From Aequorivita sp. CIP111184 (GTDB taxonomy: Bacteria > Bacteroidota > Bacteroidia > Flavobacteriales > Flavobacteriaceae): a DNA stretch of 64,000 nt. Position 1 is the first letter of the stretch. Every line of letters starts with the position of its first letter. Shown here one piece after another: positions 39,668-48,319 of the stretch. Where the stretch lies: NCBI RefSeq assembly GCF_900489465.1, contig NZ_UEFQ01000013.1, positions 682,001 to 746,000 of the forward strand. Reading direction: 5' to 3'. A program made the translations under genes and the position numbers. A model generated the notes under the pieces. The model saw only the letters and a list, made by a program, of their open reading frames with translations, was not told where the DNA came from and ran no database searches.

Positions 39668-41911
39668 TTAAGCTTTCTTAAAACTTGAATAGTATTCCTC
39701 CATCAAATTCATCAAAGCCGTTACCAAATCTTTTGTCTCAAGCAATAAGCTGAAATATAAAGTTGTGTTTTTCGGGCTCGATTCTTCGGTTCGAGTTCTG
39801 GCTATCTGCTTTTCAATCTTATTTGAAAGACTTTCGAAAATTCCTTCTTTTTTATTGAGGACATCTTTAATTCGTTGGAATTCTTTTTTCTGGAAAATAT
39901 CTTCAATTTCGCTTAAGAGTTCTTCCAAATGTTGATCTATTTCCTGCAAATCCTTTATTTGATTAAAACGAAGCGCTTTGTGGTTGTTATTCACATGCTT
40001 GTAGCTCGCTTTCGAAATAAATTCCAAGGATTGTACAACATCTGTCAAATAACCAAGAATCACGATATAGAAATTACTTCCGCGAACACTGGTTTCATCA
40101 AGATTTTTAATGAAATAGAAAATATTATCCCGTAATTCTTCTACTTCATCATTCAGTTTATTTACGCCTTTCTTGCTCTTCTTCAGTTTTTTAGTATCCT
40201 GCTTGGCCAAACCGCGAAGCATATCACTGTAGATTTTGTTTGAGCGTGAAATAACATTGCTGATGTTATCTGCACTTTCCTGAATAATACCTTGAACAGT
40301 TTTACTTTCTGCTTTCTTAAGTCCTGTTTTACTTAATTTAACTCTCACTTTATCTTTATGGGAAATATAATTTCTCACTAATAAAAGAATTGCCAATAAC
40401 AATAGTACAGCAATCATGGCGCCTCTGCCAATATAAATCAAGTAGGTTAAAGTTCCTGCGGCAGCAAAGGCAACAAAGGCGGTAAAGAACCAGCCACCAA
40501 TTACATTAAGCACCCCGGCAACTCTGTAAACGGCACTTTCACGGCCCCAAGCTCTATCGGCTAAGGATGTACCCATGGCCACCATAAAAGTTACATAGGT
40601 TGTGGAAAGCGGAAGCTTCATAGATGTAGCTGTAGCGATCAAAATACCCGCAACTACAAGATTAATGGATGCACGAATCATATCAAACGCCGGCAACTCA
40701 TAGGTTTTGTGTTTTGGTAGATTAACAACAGGTTTTTCAAAACGTTTATCAATTTTTCCCTGAAGCTTCTGTGGAATGATATAATCGAAATAAGTTGATA
40801 ATTGCGTGGATGATTTAACCAAAAACCTAGAAAGCATATTCGGGTTAAATTTTTCATGACCGTCACCTTGGCGCGCTAAGTCTATCTCTGTGTCAGAAAC
40901 AGTTCTTGCTTTTTTGGAAAACCACAATGTAAGCACCATAACACCCCCTGCAATAAAAAGAAGCATTGGTTCTGCTGGTACTTGCTCTGCAAGGCTATTC
41001 ATACTATATTCTGAAGCAGGAACGCCAGATGCGGACCAATCCATAAAGCTATGATATGCAGCCATTGGTACTCCAATAAAGTTTACCAAATCGTTTCCTG
41101 CAAAGGCTAACGCAAGACTGAAAGTACCTACCGCAATTACTATAATAAGGATACTCTTTTTGAATATCATCATAAAAAGTTGCGAGAAAACAGTCAAAAC
41201 AACAAAGCTTACCCCAATTATCAACAAGGTATCATTTTCAACGATGTCCTTAAAATCTCCGTAAAATGGAGTTCCTTTCAAGCCTTTCATAAAGATGAAA
41301 TAACTAATTGCAGTTAAAGCAACACCTCCGAAGATGGCACCGAAATACTTCATTTTTTGCTCTGCGTGAAAAGTGAAAATAAGTCGAGAAATATATTGAA
41401 CTATCATCCCCACGGTAAAAGCAACCCCAACAGAGATTATAATTCCAGAGATAATTTCTAAGGCTTTATCTGTATTAATATATTTTGAGAGTGCTGAAAA
41501 TGATTCAGTGTCAGAATGACCAATTTTTATCAATGCCATAATAACTGCGGCACCCAAAAGTTCAAACACAATGGAAACCGTTGTAGATGTTGGTAAACCA
41601 ATAGTGTTGAAAAAGTCCAGCAGCAATATGTCAGTAATCATAACAGCCATGAAAATAATCATGATTTCGTCGAAGTAGAATTCACCAGGAACGAAGATTC
41701 CTTTTCGTGCTACTTCCATCATTCCACTTGAAAAAACTGCCCCAATGAAAATCCCCAAACTCGCGATTATCAAGATGGTTCTGAATGAGATTGCCTTGGA
41801 ACCAATGGCCGAGTTCAAGAAATTTACGGCATCGTTACTAACCCCAACTACCAAATCTGCAATGGCAAGTGCGGCAAGCGCAACAATCATTAATAAATAA
41901 ATATTATCCAT
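39668..41911 (-). CDS. Inorganic phosphate transporter PiT with PhoU-like domain
   Basis: Low-affinity phosphate (or metal-phosphate) permease of 747 residues. The PiT part has two homologous halves with GVSNDAVNFLNSAIGSKA near residue 24 and LAFAGNDLVNFIGVPMAA near 268, and the STT motifs GLPTSTTVSIVFELLGAA and LPLSTTYVTFMVAMGTSLAD. From about residue 530 a cytoplasmic helical domain of about 215 residues (IIQESADNISNVISRSNKIY onward) resembles PhoU/DUF47, which in other bacteria sits in a separate gene and controls PiT; here the two are fused. Preceded by a 75 bp gap with its own Pho-type box, so it is likely induced with the neighbouring porin. Confidence 0.93.
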   Translation of the reverse strand: MDNIYLLMIVALAALAIADLVVGVSNDAVNFLNSAIGSKAISFRTILIIASLGIFIGAVFSSGMMEVARKGIFVPGEFYFDEIMIIFMAVMITDILLLDFFNTIGLPTSTTVSIVFELLGAAVIMALIKIGHSDTESFSALSKYINTDKALEIISGIIISVGVAFTVGMIVQYISRLIFTFHAEQKMKYFGAIFGGVALTAISYFIFMKGLKGTPFYGDFKDIVENDTLLIIGVSFVVLTVFSQLFMMIFKKSILIIVIAVGTFSLALAFAGNDLVNFIGVPMAAYHSFMDWSASGVPASEYSMNSLAEQVPAEPMLLFIAGGVMVLTLWFSKKARTVSDTEIDLARQGDGHEKFNPNMLSRFLVKSSTQLSTYFDYIIPQKLQGKIDKRFEKPVVNLPKHKTYELPAFDMIRASINLVVAGILIATATSMKLPLSTTYVTFMVAMGTSLADRAWGRESAVYRVAGVLNVIGGWFFTAFVAFAAAGTLTYLIYIGRGAMIAVLLLLAILLLVRNYISHKDKVRVKLSKTGLKKAESKTVQGIIQESADNISNVISRSNKIYSDMLRGLAKQDTKKLKKSKKGVNKLNDEVEELRDNIFYFIKNLDETSVRGSNFYIVILGYLTDVVQSLEFISKASYKHVNNNHKALRFNQIKDLQEIDQHLEELLSEIEDIFQKKEFQRIKDVLNKKEGIFESLSNKIEKQIARTRTEESSPKNTTLYFSLLLETKDLVTALMNLMEEYYSSFKKA

Positions 41912-41932
41912 TTCTTTTTATTTAAACTGGTG

Positions 41933-41977
41933 CAAATTTCCCATATAAAATAGGATTGATTGTTACCAAATTGTTAA
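41933..41977 (-). promoter_or_regulatory. Pho-type box and promoter of the PiT gene
   Basis: Reading the minus strand, TTAAC (41977-41973) and GTAAC (41966-41962) lie 41 and 30 bp before TTTGCACC (TTTG at 41936-41933). The start codon is 22 bp further on. Confidence 0.6.
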
Positions 41978-41986
41978 CTGTATTGT

Positions 41987-43213
41987 TTAAAAATCTATCT
42001 GTAATCGGCCTTGCAAAATCCTTGCGTTGCCCTTATCTTCTATATTTGCCCAAACATGATTTATCATTATTCTTGTTACTGGATTTAGATACCAATTTAC
42101 ACCTAAAGTAATATCTGATTGTTGGCCGCCTAAAATATCATTATTATTAAGGTCTGAATTTGAATAACGGAGCGCTACTTCCCAAGCTCCAGCACCTTTA
42201 TCTTTTCCGCCAAAATTCTTTTTTGGGTTTACTCTATCAAAACCTTCGTATGAACTTTTATAATTTTTACTCTCGCCGGTTAGATAATAGCTTAATTGTC
42301 CATAGTAACTTTCAAAGTTATATTTTTTAAAAGTAGCTTCGGTATTATTGTTTACTGTAGCTGTTAAATATTCCGCTTGGATTGATAAAGGTCCGCTTAC
42401 GAAAGCTGCTTCAAAATTTGCAAGGTTAATATTATTCACGTTTTGAATATTTTCAGTATTTATATATTTTAGTTCAAGATGGGCTTCGGGCCGTGAAGCA
42501 ACGCTGTAGGTTTTACTTTCTGGTTTTCTATAACTGTACCCTAAACCAAGGTGAAGTAATTGCTTTTTTTCAGAATTATCAAGTGCCAATCCGGTAATTC
42601 TTCCTGTAAAAACATATCCATCATCCGCTAGTATGTCATTTCCGTTGTTGCTGGCCATTCTAAAAGCTCCAGCTTGCGCGGAAAGACGATTTCCGAAAAA
42701 ATCATTAAAAATCAAAACACCATTATTGCGTTCTTGCGAAAAATCAATAAAAAACGATCGCTCCATAAAAGTAATGTATTTACTACTCGTTAAAGCATCC
42801 AAACGAAATGGCTCTTTTACATGGCCTACACGTATAGTTCCAACACCCGGAATATCTGTAAGACCAATAAACATATCTTTAAAAGCTACTTCGCCACTGG
42901 CAAAATCAAATTGAAGTTTAAATTCCACATTGCTGTAAACAGTTCCAGACATAAATATACGGGCTCGCCTAAATTCTGTCCCGCTTTTAGACACTAAGGG
43001 CCCCAAAGTAGTATCTAATTTATCATTTTGGAAAAAGTAGGCGTGGTCCACCATTATACGACCACCAAATTTTAAAGAAAATTGTTTATCCTGGCTTTCT
43101 AGTTTAAAGCCATTATCCCACTTGAAGGAAAAAGGATTATTGGGTGTTTCCTGCGAAAATGCACTAATACAAGAAAACACCAAGGCAACTAAAAGTATGC
43201 GCTTGTGTAACAT
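41987..43213 (-). CDS. Phosphate-selective porin O/P family protein
   Basis: Outer-membrane beta-barrel of 408 residues. The start is ATG 43213 (MLHKRILLVALVFSCISAFS), giving a signal peptide; the longer frame lies over the promoter. The mature part has the OprO/OprP pattern FKWDNGFKLESQDKQFSLKFGGRIMVDHAYF, EFRRARIFMSGTVYSNVEFKLQFDFA, TIRVGHVKEPFRLDALTSSKY and SQERNNGVLIFND, and ends in a C-terminal aromatic strand (ILQGRLQIDF). Its neighbours and Pho-type box indicate phosphate or polyphosphate passage, although pore selectivity is inferred from the family only. Confidence 0.88.
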   Translation of the reverse strand: MLHKRILLVALVFSCISAFSQETPNNPFSFKWDNGFKLESQDKQFSLKFGGRIMVDHAYFFQNDKLDTTLGPLVSKSGTEFRRARIFMSGTVYSNVEFKLQFDFASGEVAFKDMFIGLTDIPGVGTIRVGHVKEPFRLDALTSSKYITFMERSFFIDFSQERNNGVLIFNDFFGNRLSAQAGAFRMASNNGNDILADDGYVFTGRITGLALDNSEKKQLLHLGLGYSYRKPESKTYSVASRPEAHLELKYINTENIQNVNNINLANFEAAFVSGPLSIQAEYLTATVNNNTEATFKKYNFESYYGQLSYYLTGESKNYKSSYEGFDRVNPKKNFGGKDKGAGAWEVALRYSNSDLNNNDILGGQQSDITLGVNWYLNPVTRIMINHVWANIEDKGNARILQGRLQIDF

Positions 43214-43244
43214 TAAAAAATCGTTTCTTAGTTTTTGTCGGGTA

Positions 43245-43289
43245 CAAAGAACCGATTTTAATGTTATGTGAATGTTAAGGAATGGTTTA
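43245..43289 (-). promoter_or_regulatory. Pho-type box and promoter of the porin gene
   Basis: On the minus strand TAAAC (43289-43285), TTAAC (43278-43274) and ATAAC (43267-43263) repeat every 11 bp, 41, 30 and 19 bp before TTTGTACC (TTTG at 43248-43245). Confidence 0.65.
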
Positions 43290-43512
43290 AAATTATTAAT
43301 TTTAAACATAAAAAGGGCTGCATAATTAAATACAGCCCAGTTTTAAAATCTAGTCGACAAAAACTAAACGATTTTAAAATTTGCCTTCTATAAGGCAGAT
43401 ACAAAGAAAATGACACGATGTTTAGTTTGTGTAAATTTACCTTTACCAAATCATTAAGTTATTAATCTTATTTTTCTTATTTTTTTAAATAATTGAATAA
43501 CAATTAGTTATA

Positions 43513-43563
43513 GGGTTAATGTTATTATAATGTTATGCAATAGTTTCTTAAAGGTTAATTTTG
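43513..43563 (+). promoter_or_regulatory. Promoter of the MORN-like gene with reversed Pho-type repeats
   Basis: TAATTTTG at 43556-43563 is an exact -7 element. ATAACATTATA (43536-43526) and ATAACATTAAC (43525-43515) repeat with an 11 bp period, but on the minus strand, so this box faces away from the gene it would control. Confidence 0.45.
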
Positions 43564-43600
43564 TAAATTTGAATATTCCAAAATATTTAAAAACTTACTT

Positions 43601-43960
43601 ATGAGAAATATAATCGCACTTTTAGCAATCATTTTGACAACATCTTTGGCTTTAGCTCAGGATAATAAAAGCAACACTTACTTTTTAGATGGTGATGTAA
43701 TAGAAGCTACAATCTATCACGATAATGGAATGATAGCACAAACGGGTTTTTATAATAAGGAAAATAAACTTACTGGAGAATGGGTGAGCTATGATCTTCA
43801 AGGAAACAAGACTGCCGTAGCAGAATATAATAATGGTGAAAAAGTAGGTACTTGGTATTTCTTCTCAAATAATAGTATTAAAGAAGTAAACTTTATGGAC
43901 GCACGTGTAGCTAAAGTTGTTACTTGGAAGTCTTCCGATACACAAGTGGTTTCAAATTAA
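43601..43960 (+). CDS. Small exported MORN-like/YwqK-type protein
   Basis: Exported protein of 119 residues: signal peptide MRNIIALLAIILTTSLALAQ, then two MORN/YwqK-like repeats (EATIYHDNGMIAQTGFYNKE, KLTGEWVSYDLQGNKTAVAE, NGEKVGTWYFFSNNSIKEVNF). Such repeats bind membranes or carbohydrate in other contexts, but the function is unknown. Its place among the phosphate genes and its 11-bp-repeat promoter suggest it belongs to the phosphate-starvation set. A terminator follows directly. Confidence 0.75.
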   Translation: MRNIIALLAIILTTSLALAQDNKSNTYFLDGDVIEATIYHDNGMIAQTGFYNKENKLTGEWVSYDLQGNKTAVAEYNNGEKVGTWYFFSNNSIKEVNFMDARVAKVVTWKSSDTQVVSN

Positions 43961-43978
43961 AGATTTAAATTAATATAA

Positions 43979-44010
43979 AAAAACCCGGTTTCGAAAGAAA
44001 CCGGGTTTTT
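43979..44010. terminator. Bidirectional terminator with GAAA loop
   Basis: AAACCCGGTTTC and GAAACCGGGTTT form a 12 bp stem (14 with flanking A-T pairs) closed by a GAAA tetraloop, with T on both strands. It serves the MORN-like gene and the convergent lipoprotein gene. Confidence 0.9.
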
Positions 44011-44031
44011 AATTTTTTGCTAATTCAATAT

Positions 44032-45300
44032 TTATTCAAAAACGTAACCAGTCCAGTTGAACAAATCTCTGCTCACTGTTGGAACAGTTCCGTCTGTTAC
44101 ATTAATTGTTGCGTCAAGAGTTGTTTTGATATCTGCAATATCAAGACCTGTTGAAGAATCTCCAACTACTGAAAGATTAACTAAAGAACCTTTGGCATCA
44201 CCCTTAGAATCTGTTAAATCAATGAAATCTGCCGCTTTTGCATTAGGATTTGCAAAGGCTACGTATGCATTGGTTAGTGTAAGTCCACTACCTCTTCGTA
44301 CTTTTATCATATCTGCCATTTCTATTACAGCTCCATTTATCAATACCAAGCCATTAATGGTTGGGTTTGATTGTCCGCTATCACCAGGAGAATTACCATC
44401 TAGATTTCCATCGCCTTCCAAACCACGTGGGTCTTCGGTAATTGAAGTATAATTAGCTTCTCTTAAACCATAAAGGTTTGTGGCAGTTCCGGTCCATCCT
44501 TGGGTCCAGTCAAACATATCATCTTTAATGTTTACTGACATTAAATTCTTTACATTCACAGTTCCACCGAAAAATTCATAGGCATCATCATCGCCGTAAA
44601 ATACTGCTAAGTTTTCAATAACGGTTTCATTTCCAACGCCATAGAAAGTAATTCCATTAAATTCCTTGTCGCCATTAATACGAGCTCCAGTATAAGAAGC
44701 TTCCACGTATTTCATAACTCCAGAATTATCGTTAGAAGTTGTTCCGCCGTAAGTTAGGTCTACAACTTCAGTAGTTGCAGTTCCACCACCACTAATAGGA
44801 GCTTTTCCAATTAGAAGAATTCCACCCCAGTCTCCAGATCTTGGATTTGCAGCACTTGAAGTAAATTTTATTGGTGCAGCAGAAGTTCCAGAGGCATTAA
44901 TTTTTGCTCCTTGCTCTATGGCAACATAAACGTTTGTTCCACCAGCAGTAGCTTTAATAGTTGTGCCAGGCTCAATACATAATGTAGCTCCGTTTTTAAC
45001 GTGTAACGGGCCATTAAGAATCCATACGGTGTCTGCAGTTAAGCATACATCTGCAGTTACATCACCTTTAAGGTCTGTGGGATCTAAATCTGGATCGTCT
45101 TGAGAGGCAATTATACCGTCTTTTTCAGCTTGCACTGCGCACGGCTCACATGCTGAACCACCACAATCGATACCAGTTTCGTCACCGTTTTGAACTCCAT
45201 CATTACAAGTAGCTTCCACTTGTGTGGGGCTATCGTCTTTACTACAGCCAGTAAGGGCTAATGTTGCGATTACAAAGCTTGATAAAAGAAATTTTTTCAT
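44032..45300 (-). CDS. Cell-surface lipoprotein, beta-helix-like
   Basis: Lipoprotein of 422 residues; start ATG 45300 gives MKKFLLSSFVIATLALTGC with the lipid cysteine at 19. A cysteine-rich segment follows (CNDGVQNGDETGIDCGG, about residues 30-46), a motif seen in other Bacteroidota surface proteins. The rest has the repeating short-strand pattern of a right-handed beta-helix (LHVKNGATLCIEPGTTI, VYVAIEQGAKINASG, SGDWGGILLIGKAPIS). No enzyme motif is seen. It lies next to the TonB receptor with its own Pho-type promoter, so a receptor partner or phosphorus-compound binding protein is a reasonable guess. Confidence 0.75.
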   Translation of the reverse strand: MKKFLLSSFVIATLALTGCSKDDSPTQVEATCNDGVQNGDETGIDCGGSACEPCAVQAEKDGIIASQDDPDLDPTDLKGDVTADVCLTADTVWILNGPLHVKNGATLCIEPGTTIKATAGGTNVYVAIEQGAKINASGTSAAPIKFTSSAANPRSGDWGGILLIGKAPISGGGTATTEVVDLTYGGTTSNDNSGVMKYVEASYTGARINGDKEFNGITFYGVGNETVIENLAVFYGDDDAYEFFGGTVNVKNLMSVNIKDDMFDWTQGWTGTATNLYGLREANYTSITEDPRGLEGDGNLDGNSPGDSGQSNPTINGLVLINGAVIEMADMIKVRRGSGLTLTNAYVAFANPNAKAADFIDLTDSKGDAKGSLVNLSVVGDSSTGLDIADIKTTLDATINVTDGTVPTVSRDLFNWTGYVFE

Positions 45301-45327
45301 TTTTTTGTTTTGTTTAAAAGTTTGGTG

Positions 45328-45383
45328 CAAAGAAACAACTAGCTTGTTTCGTAACTCTTAGGTTAATATTATGGTTCTGTTAA
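45328..45383 (-). promoter_or_regulatory. Pho-type box and promoter of the lipoprotein gene
   Basis: On the minus strand TTAAC (45383-45379), ATAAT (45372-45368), CTAAG (45361-45357) and GAAAC (45350-45346) stand 52, 41, 30 and 19 bp before TTTGCACC (TTTG at 45331-45328). A second pair, TTAAC (45366-45362) and GTTAC (45355-45351), is 11 bp apart but out of that phase, so this is the least clean of the four boxes. Confidence 0.5.
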
Positions 45384-45392
45384 TTGTATTTT

Positions 45393-48218
45393 TTAGAATG
45401 AATAGGAAACGCCTGCACTAAAAACTACACCTCTTTTGTAGGTTTCTACTGGAACTTCCTGTCCGTCTGGCAATGCTGCATTTGGAACCCCAATATTGTT
45501 TACATCCTGTGTCAATTTATACTCAGGATCTAATATGTTTTTAATGTTAAGTTTGATTCCGAAATTTTCATTGATGGCAATTTTATTAATGAAATCAAGA
45601 GTTGGGATTGCAGAGAGCACAATATTGTTCTTTCCTGAGCCAGGATTTGCATCATCACCACCTGTTCCCAAAGAGTAGATACTTTTGCTGTTATAGTTGA
45701 AAACCACCGAGCTGGTAATGCCGCTGTTTTTCTTTTTCAAATTCAACGTTAAATCTGAGCCCAAAATGAATGGCGAAGAGCCTTCCAATTCATCTTCTTT
45801 ATTGGTGAAACGAACTGTAAGATTATCTGTTGGAACGTCTTCCAATTTTTGGTTTGAGTATAAATAGGAAGCATTCAAACCGAAAGTCAAAGTCTTTTCA
45901 CTGTCCGAATCATTTGAAAGTTTCAAAATGTTTTTTCTCAGTTCAAGCTCAACACCTGCAATAGTTGCATCGCCGGTGTTTACATAGGAAAGCTCGCCTG
46001 CCGCAGAATTTACTTCAATACGGTTAATGGCATTTTTAATGTTTTTATAGAAACCTGTAACCGCAACAATTTCACCCGGACTGAAGTAGTATTCATATTT
46101 TAAATCTAGGTTGTAATTGTCAGCAGTCAACAAATCTGGATTACCAAAACTGTTGAAGCTTACGTCTTCATAAAGGAAAGGTGCTACCTCCTTAAATTGT
46201 GGAAGTGTATATGTTTTGCTTCCCGCTAAACGAACGATGCTGTTTTCGTTAAAGTTATACTTCAAATTAAAACTTGGTAAAACGAAGTTTTCATCAATAA
46301 GTGAAGGATCTGTGTTTGGATCGTTGGTTGTTGCAAGGTTGGTATCAAAAAGCACTTCTTGTTTCACTTTTTCGTAACGAACGCCTACGTTTGCTGAAAA
46401 GCTATTTGAAAAATCATAACTTACTTCTCCTAAACCTGAGTGAATGGTTCTAGTTCCATCATAAGAAAATGGAATGAAAGGATCTTTCCCGTCACGACCA
46501 TCCCCGCGGTTTGTGGTAAGTCTAAATATTCCGTCGTTTAAAGATTGTTGGTTGAAGAGTGAAGTATCTGGATTATCAATATCAACAACAGCCGGGCTAT
46601 CAAAAATATAGTTTAGTTGGGTATAATTGAAAGTTCGGTCTGTATCTCTATAATTGTAGCCTAAACGGATTCTACTATTTTTACTGTCTTCATTTTGTCC
46701 ATTTAAAGCATAATCCAAATAAAGTTTTCCGGCCAGATCATTTTCTTCAAGATTTGAATAAAAACGATTGTTAAGAGCGCTTCCCGATGCAGCACGGGCA
46801 ATATCTGCATTTACATCAATAACATAAGTATTGGTTCTACGGTCTGGCTCATATCCACGGATGGTATTGTATGAAGCGCCCGCTTCCAAACTAAGTTTTT
46901 CAGAAATGGTAAGCGAAGTTAAAAGCTGGTTTACAAAAAGATTATTCTCGTTTTCCTGCTGTCTTCTAACTAAGGCACGAATTGGGTTTTGAGGCTCATC
47001 GTTTTCTGTAAGTCCCGCTTTTAATCCGTAATAATCAGCAACGCTTTGGCTATTGCTCTTTATGAACATACTGTTTGCCGCGATATAATCTCCTTCCTGA
47101 AAACGGAATTTTATATTGGCCATAGCCAATTTTGAAACGTTATAATTATATTCGGTTCGTTGAAATTGTTGGTTAAATCCTCCAGCAGCGTTTATTCTAT
47201 CTGAAGTTCCTTCGCGGTATTCATATTTATTATCAAAATTACCTACGAAGAAAAGACTTAGTCTGTTTCTCCCAATATCAAAACGCTTTCCGCCAGAAAG
47301 AGAATAACTAGAATTTAGTTGTGCATTTTGTGTGTTTGGTTTAAAGTTGTTATCAAAAGCATGCACATTCAAGTCCGTAATAGGTACGTGCGTATCGTGA
47401 ATGTTGCCAATGTATTTTGCATTGTCCATAATTAAAAATTCCTTTCCAACAGCTCGAGAATTCACTTCCGGGGAAATGGAAAACTGTAAACTTCCAGGTC
47501 CAGTAAGTTCTTTGCTTACAATGTTTATGTTAGCTCCCGCAACGTCACCGTAAAGTGGTACAGAAAAAGTTTTGTTAATCCCTACACTTTCAATAACATC
47601 ACTAGAGAAAAAGTCCAAAGAGATATTTTTGTATTCCGGATCTTCGGAAGGAAGTGGCAACTCATTTAAAGTGGTGGAATTGTAACGGTCTCCTAAACCG
47701 CGAACAAATACGTTCTTAATTCCTGCCTGTTTTTTAACACCCGTTACTTTGGTTACAGCGCCTTCTGCATCGCCCACGCCTTTTCTTGAAAGGTCTTCCG
47801 CCCCGATAGATTGTGTAATTCCCACAGCTTTCTTCTGTTCTAATAATAAAGCAACAGCACTTTCCCTACGCGTTGTAGTTTTAATTACTACTTCATCTAA
47901 GGCAGCCGCACTAGCGCCCATGGGCACGTCAATATTAGTTACTTTGTCTGCAATTACTTTAACGTCTGGAATTTCAACAGTTTCGTAACCAACAAAACTA
48001 TATACCACGGTATAGGTTCCGGGCTCAATGTTTTCCAAAGAATACAAACCATCAATATCTGAAGTTACACCTTTAGTAGTTCCTTTCAGAAATATATTTG
48101 CAAAGGGCAACGGTTCGTTATTGTAATCGGTATCGGTAAGTTTTCCAACAATGGAGCCTGTTTGGGCTATCGATATTGAAGTTAAAAAGAAGAATAAAAC
48201 TTTAATAATTGTTTTCAT
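45393..48218 (-). CDS. TonB-dependent outer-membrane receptor
   Basis: Outer-membrane active transporter of 941 residues. Signal peptide (MKTIIKVLFFFLTSISIAQ), a carboxypeptidase-regulatory-like beta domain (about 20-110; GSIVGKLTDTDYNNEPLPFA), a plug domain (about 120-240; GVKKQAGIKNVFVRGLGDRY) and a 22-strand barrel ending in an aromatic strand (FSAGVSYSF). The plug wording SAPIG-EDLSRKGVGDAEGAV differs from typical siderophore receptors. No SusD-type partner is adjacent; a beta-helix-like lipoprotein is instead. With a six-repeat Pho-type promoter, it is a candidate receptor for phosphate or an organophosphate. The substrate is unproven. Confidence 0.9.
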   Translation of the reverse strand: MKTIIKVLFFFLTSISIAQTGSIVGKLTDTDYNNEPLPFANIFLKGTTKGVTSDIDGLYSLENIEPGTYTVVYSFVGYETVEIPDVKVIADKVTNIDVPMGASAAALDEVVIKTTTRRESAVALLLEQKKAVGITQSIGAEDLSRKGVGDAEGAVTKVTGVKKQAGIKNVFVRGLGDRYNSTTLNELPLPSEDPEYKNISLDFFSSDVIESVGINKTFSVPLYGDVAGANINIVSKELTGPGSLQFSISPEVNSRAVGKEFLIMDNAKYIGNIHDTHVPITDLNVHAFDNNFKPNTQNAQLNSSYSLSGGKRFDIGRNRLSLFFVGNFDNKYEYREGTSDRINAAGGFNQQFQRTEYNYNVSKLAMANIKFRFQEGDYIAANSMFIKSNSQSVADYYGLKAGLTENDEPQNPIRALVRRQQENENNLFVNQLLTSLTISEKLSLEAGASYNTIRGYEPDRRTNTYVIDVNADIARAASGSALNNRFYSNLEENDLAGKLYLDYALNGQNEDSKNSRIRLGYNYRDTDRTFNYTQLNYIFDSPAVVDIDNPDTSLFNQQSLNDGIFRLTTNRGDGRDGKDPFIPFSYDGTRTIHSGLGEVSYDFSNSFSANVGVRYEKVKQEVLFDTNLATTNDPNTDPSLIDENFVLPSFNLKYNFNENSIVRLAGSKTYTLPQFKEVAPFLYEDVSFNSFGNPDLLTADNYNLDLKYEYYFSPGEIVAVTGFYKNIKNAINRIEVNSAAGELSYVNTGDATIAGVELELRKNILKLSNDSDSEKTLTFGLNASYLYSNQKLEDVPTDNLTVRFTNKEDELEGSSPFILGSDLTLNLKKKNSGITSSVVFNYNSKSIYSLGTGGDDANPGSGKNNIVLSAIPTLDFINKIAINENFGIKLNIKNILDPEYKLTQDVNNIGVPNAALPDGQEVPVETYKRGVVFSAGVSYSF

Positions 48219-48240
48219 TTTTGTCGTTTGATTTATTTGT

Positions 48241-48319
48241 GCAAAGGAACTCCCGTAATGTAAAGACCGTGTTAATTAAGCATTACCAATTCGTCACTAT
48301 AGCGTTAGCTAAAGGTTAA
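48241..48319 (-). promoter_or_regulatory. Six-repeat Pho-type box and promoter of the TonB receptor
   Basis: On the minus strand six 5-mers step exactly 11 bp: TTAAC (48319), CTAAC (48308), GTGAC (48297), GTAAT (48286), TTAAC (48275), TTTAC (48264), then TTTGCAC with TTTG at 48245-48242. The last three stand 41, 30 and 19 bp before TTTG. The first includes CTTAACCT, the cyanobacterial Pho-box unit. Confidence 0.7.

Follow-up and report, generated by a model that had tools for sequence, protein, structure and literature searches.

Genes and promoters of the locus

The window, by which we mean the whole 64-kb stretch of DNA analysed here (GC content 37%, from a genome of 3.54 Mb), contains genes for a PiT-type phosphate transporter, an OprO/OprP-type porin, a lipoprotein and a TonB-dependent receptor on the minus strand and, on the plus strand, a gene for a small, secreted-looking protein termed the MORN gene in the following (Table 1). 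The same receptor is present in eight named Aequorivita loci with 85-98% identity, which points to a Flavobacteriaceae member of the Aequorivita type, and a homologue of the lipoprotein gene adjoins the receptor gene in all 29 non-own receptor loci among the best 30 matches. In front of each of the four minus-strand genes TTAAC-like units follow each other in steps of 11 bp and stand upstream of a TTTG(C/T)AC element. When the layout was re-derived on the minus strand, the unit positions given by the first-pass annotation proved right at all four promoters.

Table 1. Genes, promoters and arrays of the locus. Positions are those of the 64-kb window. Values in brackets are distances from the start of a unit to the first T of TTTG(C/T)AC, counted on the minus strand.
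Feature	Position	Strand	Domain matches or elements
PiT-type phosphate transporter gene	39668..41911	-	PF01384 (PHO4)
PiT promoter	41930..41977	-	2 units: TTAAC 41973-41977 (-41), GTAAC 41962-41966 (-30); unit at -19 absent; TTTGCAC 41930-41936
OprO/OprP-type porin gene	41987..43213	-	PF07396
Porin promoter	43242..43289	-	3 units: TAAAC 43285-43289 (-41), TTAAC 43274-43278 (-30), ATAAC 43263-43267 (-19); TTTGTAC 43242-43248
Inverted array of the MORN gene	43521..43558	-	TTAAC, GAAAC, ATAAC, ATAAC; inverted relative to the MORN gene
MORN gene (small protein, secreted-looking)	43601..43960	+	MORN_2 match below the curated cut-off
Lipoprotein gene	44032..45303	-	no Pfam match
Lipoprotein promoter (weak)	45325..45383	-	TTAAC 45379-45383 (-52), ATAAT 45368-45372 (-41), CTAAG 45357-45361 (-30), GAAAC 45346-45350 (-19); TTTGCAC 45325-45331
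TonB-dependent receptor gene	45393..48218	-	PF13715 (CarbopepD_reg_2), PF07715, PF00593
Receptor promoter	48239..48319	-	6 units in 11-bp steps: TTAAC 48315-48319 (-74), CTAAC (-63), GTGAC (-52), GTAAT (-41), TTAAC (-30), TTTAC 48260-48264 (-19); TTTGCAC 48239-48245

At least two direct units with an 11-bp period, as they would be expected for a Pho box, stand before the PiT, porin and receptor genes, and the porin-promoter layout recurs in the loci L111, L112, L116 and L117. For the lipoprotein gene the assignment is doubtful: the fit of its main register is weak, and a second register, half a turn off, is formed by TTAAC at -35 (45362-45366) and GTTAC at -24 (45351-45355), a pair mostly preserved in six of the eight named Aequorivita loci. 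One common layout had originally been ascribed to five genes. Four genes carry it, the lipoprotein gene poorly; a fifth gene, the MORN gene, is preceded by an inverted array. A strict and unusual phasing on one face of the helix had been proposed as well. The units are indeed in register, but the face is approximate since an 11-bp step drifts slightly against a helix of 10.5 bp, and the register is not anomalous; with a PhoB-type activator a register with the core promoter is to be expected.

Strength of the arrays in the window and in the genome

Forty-five receptor and PiT promoters, all from orthologues in other genomes, served to build a 48-bp matrix and a sequence-only covariance model. 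The 45 promoters are the rows kept from the 50 of the training alignment A1, each with at least six of the eight TAAC letters and all anchored on TTTGC; because of this anchoring and selection the invariant columns of A1 are partly there by construction. In the 64-kb window the matrix ranked the four promoters first to fourth (32.5, 31.8, 24.5 and 18.0), and the score dropped to 8.5 at rank 5. In the genome-wide scan with the model, for which 150 of 3520 candidates were scored, the PiT promoter came first (E 9.9e-5), the receptor promoter second (E 2.3e-4) and the porin promoter third (E 0.004) although the training set held no porin promoter; fourth place had an E of 0.054. The lipoprotein promoter was missing from the 24 matches that the same 150 scored candidates gave at E<=10. 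Matrix scores close to that of the lipoprotein promoter occur elsewhere in the genome, namely before a MarC family gene (17.8) and before a MoxR-type ATPase gene (16.2). The PiT, porin and receptor promoters are therefore secure, and the lipoprotein promoter is on a par with the MarC and MoxR-type places.

At the MarC gene the core layout with one mismatch precedes a TTTGC (L133, G000:C38:244256-244287), and the core layout itself is found before a TTTGC ahead of the MoxR-type gene (L151, G000:C35:416804-416847). Both may be chance occurrences or further targets; neither gene has an evident phosphate role, which counts against a phosphate regulon. If phased repeats were common at unrelated promoters they would mean little, yet strong matches are rare there, with these two places as possible exceptions. 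The exact pattern TAAC-N7-TAAC-N25-TTTG exists twice in the 3.54 Mb, at the PiT and at the MoxR-type gene. With up to one mismatch allowed it is not enriched in the own genome (53 against 93 in the reversed control). The same holds for TTAAC-N6-TTAAC as a bare pair at this tolerance (401 places against 981), so that neither is diagnostic alone. Nineteen of the matches from E 0.054 downwards were inspected for further members of the group in the own genome; several of them lie inside genes or precede genes that we take to be of the pyrE, pheT and tatA types. The MarC and MoxR-type places cannot be set aside as readily.

Conservation upstream of orthologous genes

The receptor occurs in 85 and the PiT transporter in 146 of 149 genomes; the orthologous promoters compared here come from the best 30 matches only. 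They comprise 27 anchored promoters from 29 non-own receptor loci and 23 anchored promoters from 29 PiT loci. Among these, exact TAAC is present before the receptor at -74 in 24/27, at -63 in 26/27 and at -30 in 25/27 cases, position -41 reads TAAC in 13/27 and TAAT in 12/27, and the units at -52 and -19 are degenerate yet in register. Before PiT, exact TAAC was found in 19/23 anchored promoters at -41 and likewise in 19/23 at -30. Exact 11-bp pairs number 38 at receptor and 20 at PiT promoters among the best 30 matches, compared with shuffle means of 0.25 and 0.085, respectively. The first-pass annotation had suggested an alignment of orthologous upstream regions, and in it both the unit step and the distance to TTTG are kept at PiT and receptor genes. 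Between genera, units, 11-bp step and TTTG stay constant and most spacer positions vary.

Several loci were left out of these counts: L057 (fits, with TTTGT) and L058 (fits, with a start further upstream) for the receptor; L063 (fits, with TTTGT), L090 (units before TTTAC), L084 (cut by a contig end) and L071, L076 and L080, in which no array was seen, for PiT. Three counted loci do not fit (L035, L054 and L082) and two are one base off (L075 and L086). A genome of the same genus, G027, has PiT with its array and yet no receptor at E<=1e-100.

Genes preceded by arrays in the family

The model matched at E<=0.02 in 79 of 100 genomes of the family, one to six times in each. The gene downstream is a PiT, receptor, receptor-domain, lipoprotein or barrel gene at 137 of the 150 matches listed, and gene classes absent from the training set are included. 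Of the matches listed, 78 are situated at most 130 bp from a start (PiT 43, receptor 33, porin 2). A reading frame follows downstream in 68 of the other 72, 32 of these 68 with a Porin_O_P match; by class, the 72 comprise 31 whose downstream products form one porin cluster, 14 at lipoprotein genes, eight at receptor or receptor-domain genes and three at PiT. Three further barrels among the matches listed are L291 and L279 (both Porin_O_P) and L304 (barrel). Two matches, L303 and L313, lie upstream of PiT at a distance of about 170-190 bp, and their fit to the matrix is poor (12.6 and 10.8). Thirteen of the 150 matches listed are without such a gene, which counts against the reading as a phosphate regulon: two lie at aspartyl-tRNA synthetases and one each at a SerC-like aminotransferase, an ECF sigma factor and a Plug-domain receptor (L314), the remainder being L298, L308, L319, L325 and four places without a reading frame. 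On the whole, strong copies are found at phosphate-acquisition promoters and are rare elsewhere. The lipoprotein gene is weakly marked in the window, but among the matches listed 14 other genomes have a strong array before it, and in three of these it adjoins phoB.

Some of the matches deserve separate mention. Proteins of 121-136 amino acids that resemble the N-terminal domain of the receptor are encoded behind an array of their own at L259, L264, L269, L281, L282, L301 and L323; in five genomes these small receptor-domain genes lie upstream of a receptor or lipoprotein array, some 600-660 bp from it. The unit-like runs 145-163 bp upstream of the aspartyl-tRNA synthetase frames (L283 and L321) may be a property of a divergent gene. 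At L317 (G094:C33:398669-398712) an array with a score of 31.1 has an ECF sigma factor as the chosen frame, 279 bp off; as a target this sigma factor would hint at an additional regulatory layer.

Promoters of pstS and phoX genes

In the own genome neither PstS (TIGR02136) nor PF05787 (phoX) gave a match at E<=0.001, and the forward-type regulon of this organism may therefore be little more than the present locus. In relatives, 14 pstS matches were obtained and 13 promoters scanned (L224, a second fragment, was left out). Five of the 13 promoters beat all 20 shuffles, four of them clearly, and all five belong to the ten matches above the family cut-off, the other three of the 13 being below it. 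Eight of the 13 show no array, which counts against the main reading. Porin-like frames upstream of the pstS genes L213 and L218 suggest operons, and in several relatives pstS is close to PiT or the receptor by coordinates. The phoX promoters are mostly without the layout, which likewise counts against it: six of 30 loci in relatives beat the shuffles, in a set of which only some are classical PhoX.

A candidate regulator and its inverted array

The own genome contains four genes for OmpR-type DNA-binding regulators (L107, CusR-like; L108; L109, RprY-like; and L110). The best two families of L108 (contig C35:134803-135480) are TIGR02154, with 216.1 of 296.2 bits, and NF053854, with 207.7 of 270 bits; since it stays below the cut-offs of both NCBIfam PhoB equivalogs, we call it PhoB-like. 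Next to it lies a histidine kinase gene with PnpS, WalK and PhoR as best families, all under their cut-offs, so that L108 has a neighbour of the PhoR type. An orthologue of PhoB is present in 97 of 100 genomes (E<=1e-60), and for this reason co-occurrence discriminates little. Three genomes lack a PhoB match at this threshold; two of them are incomplete (G048, 82% complete, and G055, 86%) and carry array matches, a finding that counts against PhoB as the reader. In 13 of 55 genomes phoB and the receptor gene are arranged divergently, with 178-282 bp between the matches. A PhoB-family reader had been suggested from the start, and this synteny together with the array before phoB strengthens the candidate.

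The forward layout was sought before phoB and scored above 10 in one of 30 loci; the inverted form was found instead. An exact inverted pair GTTA-N7-GTTA lies at most 180 bp before phoB in 24 of 27 loci, three loci with a divergent receptor or lipoprotein gene having been excluded, whereas in 200 shuffles the number of such loci averaged 0.54 and never exceeded 3. At spacings of 8-10 and 12-15 there was no inverted pair in the 27 loci, and a same-strand 11-bp pair was present in three of them. Anchoring on TTTG had proved ambiguous, and the phoB promoters were anchored on TATCTTT instead (24/30 loci); relative to this anchor the inverted units are located mostly at -57/-46 or -59/-48, i.e. some 46-59 bp upstream of the TTT in TATCTTT. 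A three-unit score of 15 was reached on the opposite strand with period 11 in 15 of 30 phoB loci (L327-L356), in 0/30 on the same strand and in 0/30 at periods 8-10 and 12-14. The units of the own phoB gene are GTTAC and ATTAA (inverted), the second being degenerate. The three remaining regulator genes of the own genome, like five matches to L107, have no exact 11-bp pair within 180 bp upstream.

The MORN gene is the other case of inversion. At period 11 its four-unit score is 19.8-23.3 when the window is taken together with seven named Aequorivita loci (L111-L115, L118 and L124), of which five lack a porin match within the locus; at periods 9, 10, 12 and 13 it does not exceed 10.6. Orientation might conceivably be part of the code, a proposal to which we give rather less than even odds: forward arrays ending 19 or 30 bp before a weak TTTG would activate, and inverted ones, which would stand before good -7 elements (TATCTTT at phoB, TAAATTTG at the MORN gene), would work otherwise, perhaps by autorepression or low-gain autoregulation of phoB. 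If so, one unit read in two directions would set both the level of the activator and the activation of its targets.

Comparison with known Pho boxes

The likeness to the cyanobacterial Pho box, on which the original proposal was built, was stated correctly: the accessible text of PMC1906773 gives the SphR box as CTTAACCT with 3-bp linkers. The two have a TTAAC core, an 11-bp period, at least three tandem direct units and phosphate genes in common, and the TTAAC/TTTAC run before the receptor gene is similar to cyanobacterial sites listed there, CTTAACCTtccCTTTACCA for example. The arrays described here differ from what that text reports in the unit (N)TAAC with its variable first base and without a fixed CT tail, in the phylum, in the fixed distance to a Bacteroidota TTTG and in the presence of up to six in-register units. 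In the portion of PMC4415409 that we could consult, the Pho box of several bacteria consists of two 11-nt direct units, and E. coli shares with our case the 11-bp head-to-tail units, a PhoB-type regulator with a PhoR-type kinase and the phosphate genes. Its core CTGTCAT (PMC4415409) differs from the one found here; further differences are the lack of a PhoX or PstS match in the own genome and the inverted array before phoB.

Within the phylum of Aequorivita, a PhoRB regulon has been described for Bacteroides fragilis (PMC3547664). As far as the main text of that paper shows, PhoB is required there for pstC expression at low Pi and the recombinant protein shifts a 512-bp pstC promoter fragment; the word 'consensus' does not occur in this main text, and no box sequence was found in the passages covered. 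For Flavobacterium johnsoniae, the text covered of PMC8115612 reports strong induction upon Pi depletion in the phoBR cluster (log2 8.0 for the receptor, 9.9 for the lipoprotein and 3.1 for PhoB). The OprP of this cluster was not induced (log2 -1.3), which counts against a common regulon, and a phoB mutant was not found in the text covered (PMC8115612). The cluster, PUSIV, is given there as glycosyltransferase, OprP, PhoR, PhoB, receptor and polygalacturonase-like lipoprotein (PMC8115612), and the metagenome-assembled locus L122 has a similar order with GT, PhoR, PhoB, receptor and lipoprotein. The orthology of Fjoh_0545 and Fjoh_0546 to the window genes is taken from order and class only, and Fjoh_0545 is assigned to PF14905 in the covered text (PMC8115612) as compared with PF00593 for the window receptor. 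The term 'pho box' has no occurrence in the same text and no operator was found there. The accessible part of PMC4796936 mentions putative Pho boxes for the plcP clusters of marine bacteria and gives no sequence for them. A search of the openly licensed literature returned no Pho box sequence for flavobacteria. The box described here is thus of a known kind, and its sequence, unit number, register with a Bacteroidota promoter and inverted arrays make it a lineage-specific variant.

Alternative explanations

Different causes for the same pattern have to be weighed. We regard it as unlikely that the arrays are read by a different OmpR-type regulator (RprY-like L109, or L110) or by a factor from some other family, and that they define a cell-envelope rather than a phosphate regulon. 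OmpR-type regulators generally use tandem repeats of about one helix turn, and four of them are encoded in the own genome. When these four served as queries, however, phoB was the one gene to turn up beside the receptor and PiT loci examined; phoB is divergent from the receptor in the 13 genomes, and its promoters carry the units. CusR-like L107 is too rare, at 5 of 100 genomes, to account for arrays in 79.

Still less probable is an inheritance of the layout as promoter DNA, duplicated or slowly diverging, without any common regulator. Receptor, lipoprotein, porin and PiT genes often adjoin, and a local duplication of promoters is therefore conceivable, but spacers vary between genera while units, step and TTTG persist, and the layout recurs ahead of unrelated gene families, on separate contigs and at some pstS genes. 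Chance is the least credible of the alternatives. It would draw on the AT-rich sequence (window GC 37%) and on the loose patterns, which lack genome-wide enrichment; against it, a model trained elsewhere places PiT, receptor and porin as the top three of the genome, 11-bp pairs exceed the shuffles by far, and at phoB no other period between 8 and 14 reaches the threshold. Chance is contradicted for the PiT, receptor, porin and phoB promoters; the lipoprotein promoter may still be due to it.

A probable flavobacterial phosphate regulon and its meaning

We consider it probable, at about 0.88, that the arrays serve as Pho-box-type operators in a phosphate regulon of flavobacteria, with the PhoB-like regulator as candidate reader. 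This estimate depends on the PiT, receptor, porin and phoB promoters and not on that of the lipoprotein gene. The Pho-type regulon postulated in the first-pass annotation thereby gains support from features of the DNA itself, namely the ranks of the arrays, their conservation, their spacing, the set of genes marked, the linkage to phoB and the array in front of phoB. Binding of the regulator, activation and a response to phosphate are what we infer from them.

In Bacteroidota, the consensus of the -7 element is TAnnTTTG; the sigma factor and -7 element of E. coli differ from those of this phylum. PhoB-type activators contact sigma. Under phosphate shortage the PhoR-like kinase would phosphorylate the PhoB-like response regulator, whose subunits would then bind head-to-tail to the (N)TAAC units, one per 11 bp and two to six per promoter. 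The array would substitute for a good upstream promoter element in front of a weak Bacteroidota-type -7 element (TTTG), and the subunit nearest to the start would recruit or hold RNA polymerase at TTTG. We propose that this contact of the last subunit with RNA polymerase accounts for the fixed distance between array and TTTG. PiT, porin, receptor and, more weakly, lipoprotein would be co-induced and would move phosphate or organic phosphorus across both membranes. A higher number of units might afford tighter or more graded control, and the inverted arrays before phoB and the MORN gene may act otherwise.

Flavobacteria play a major part in recycling organic phosphorus, both in the sea and in soil. 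Their published phosphate regulon consists of expression data, and in the accessible text of the openly licensed papers no operator sequence was found for it. An array pattern that marks transport genes of the same kinds in 79 of the 100 genomes sampled would allow a large part of this regulon to be read from genome sequence alone. It is also suited as a test case for the action of a PhoB-type activator at the unusual Bacteroidota promoter, and it singles out the lipoprotein-receptor pair and the small receptor-domain protein as candidate phosphate-controlled functions.
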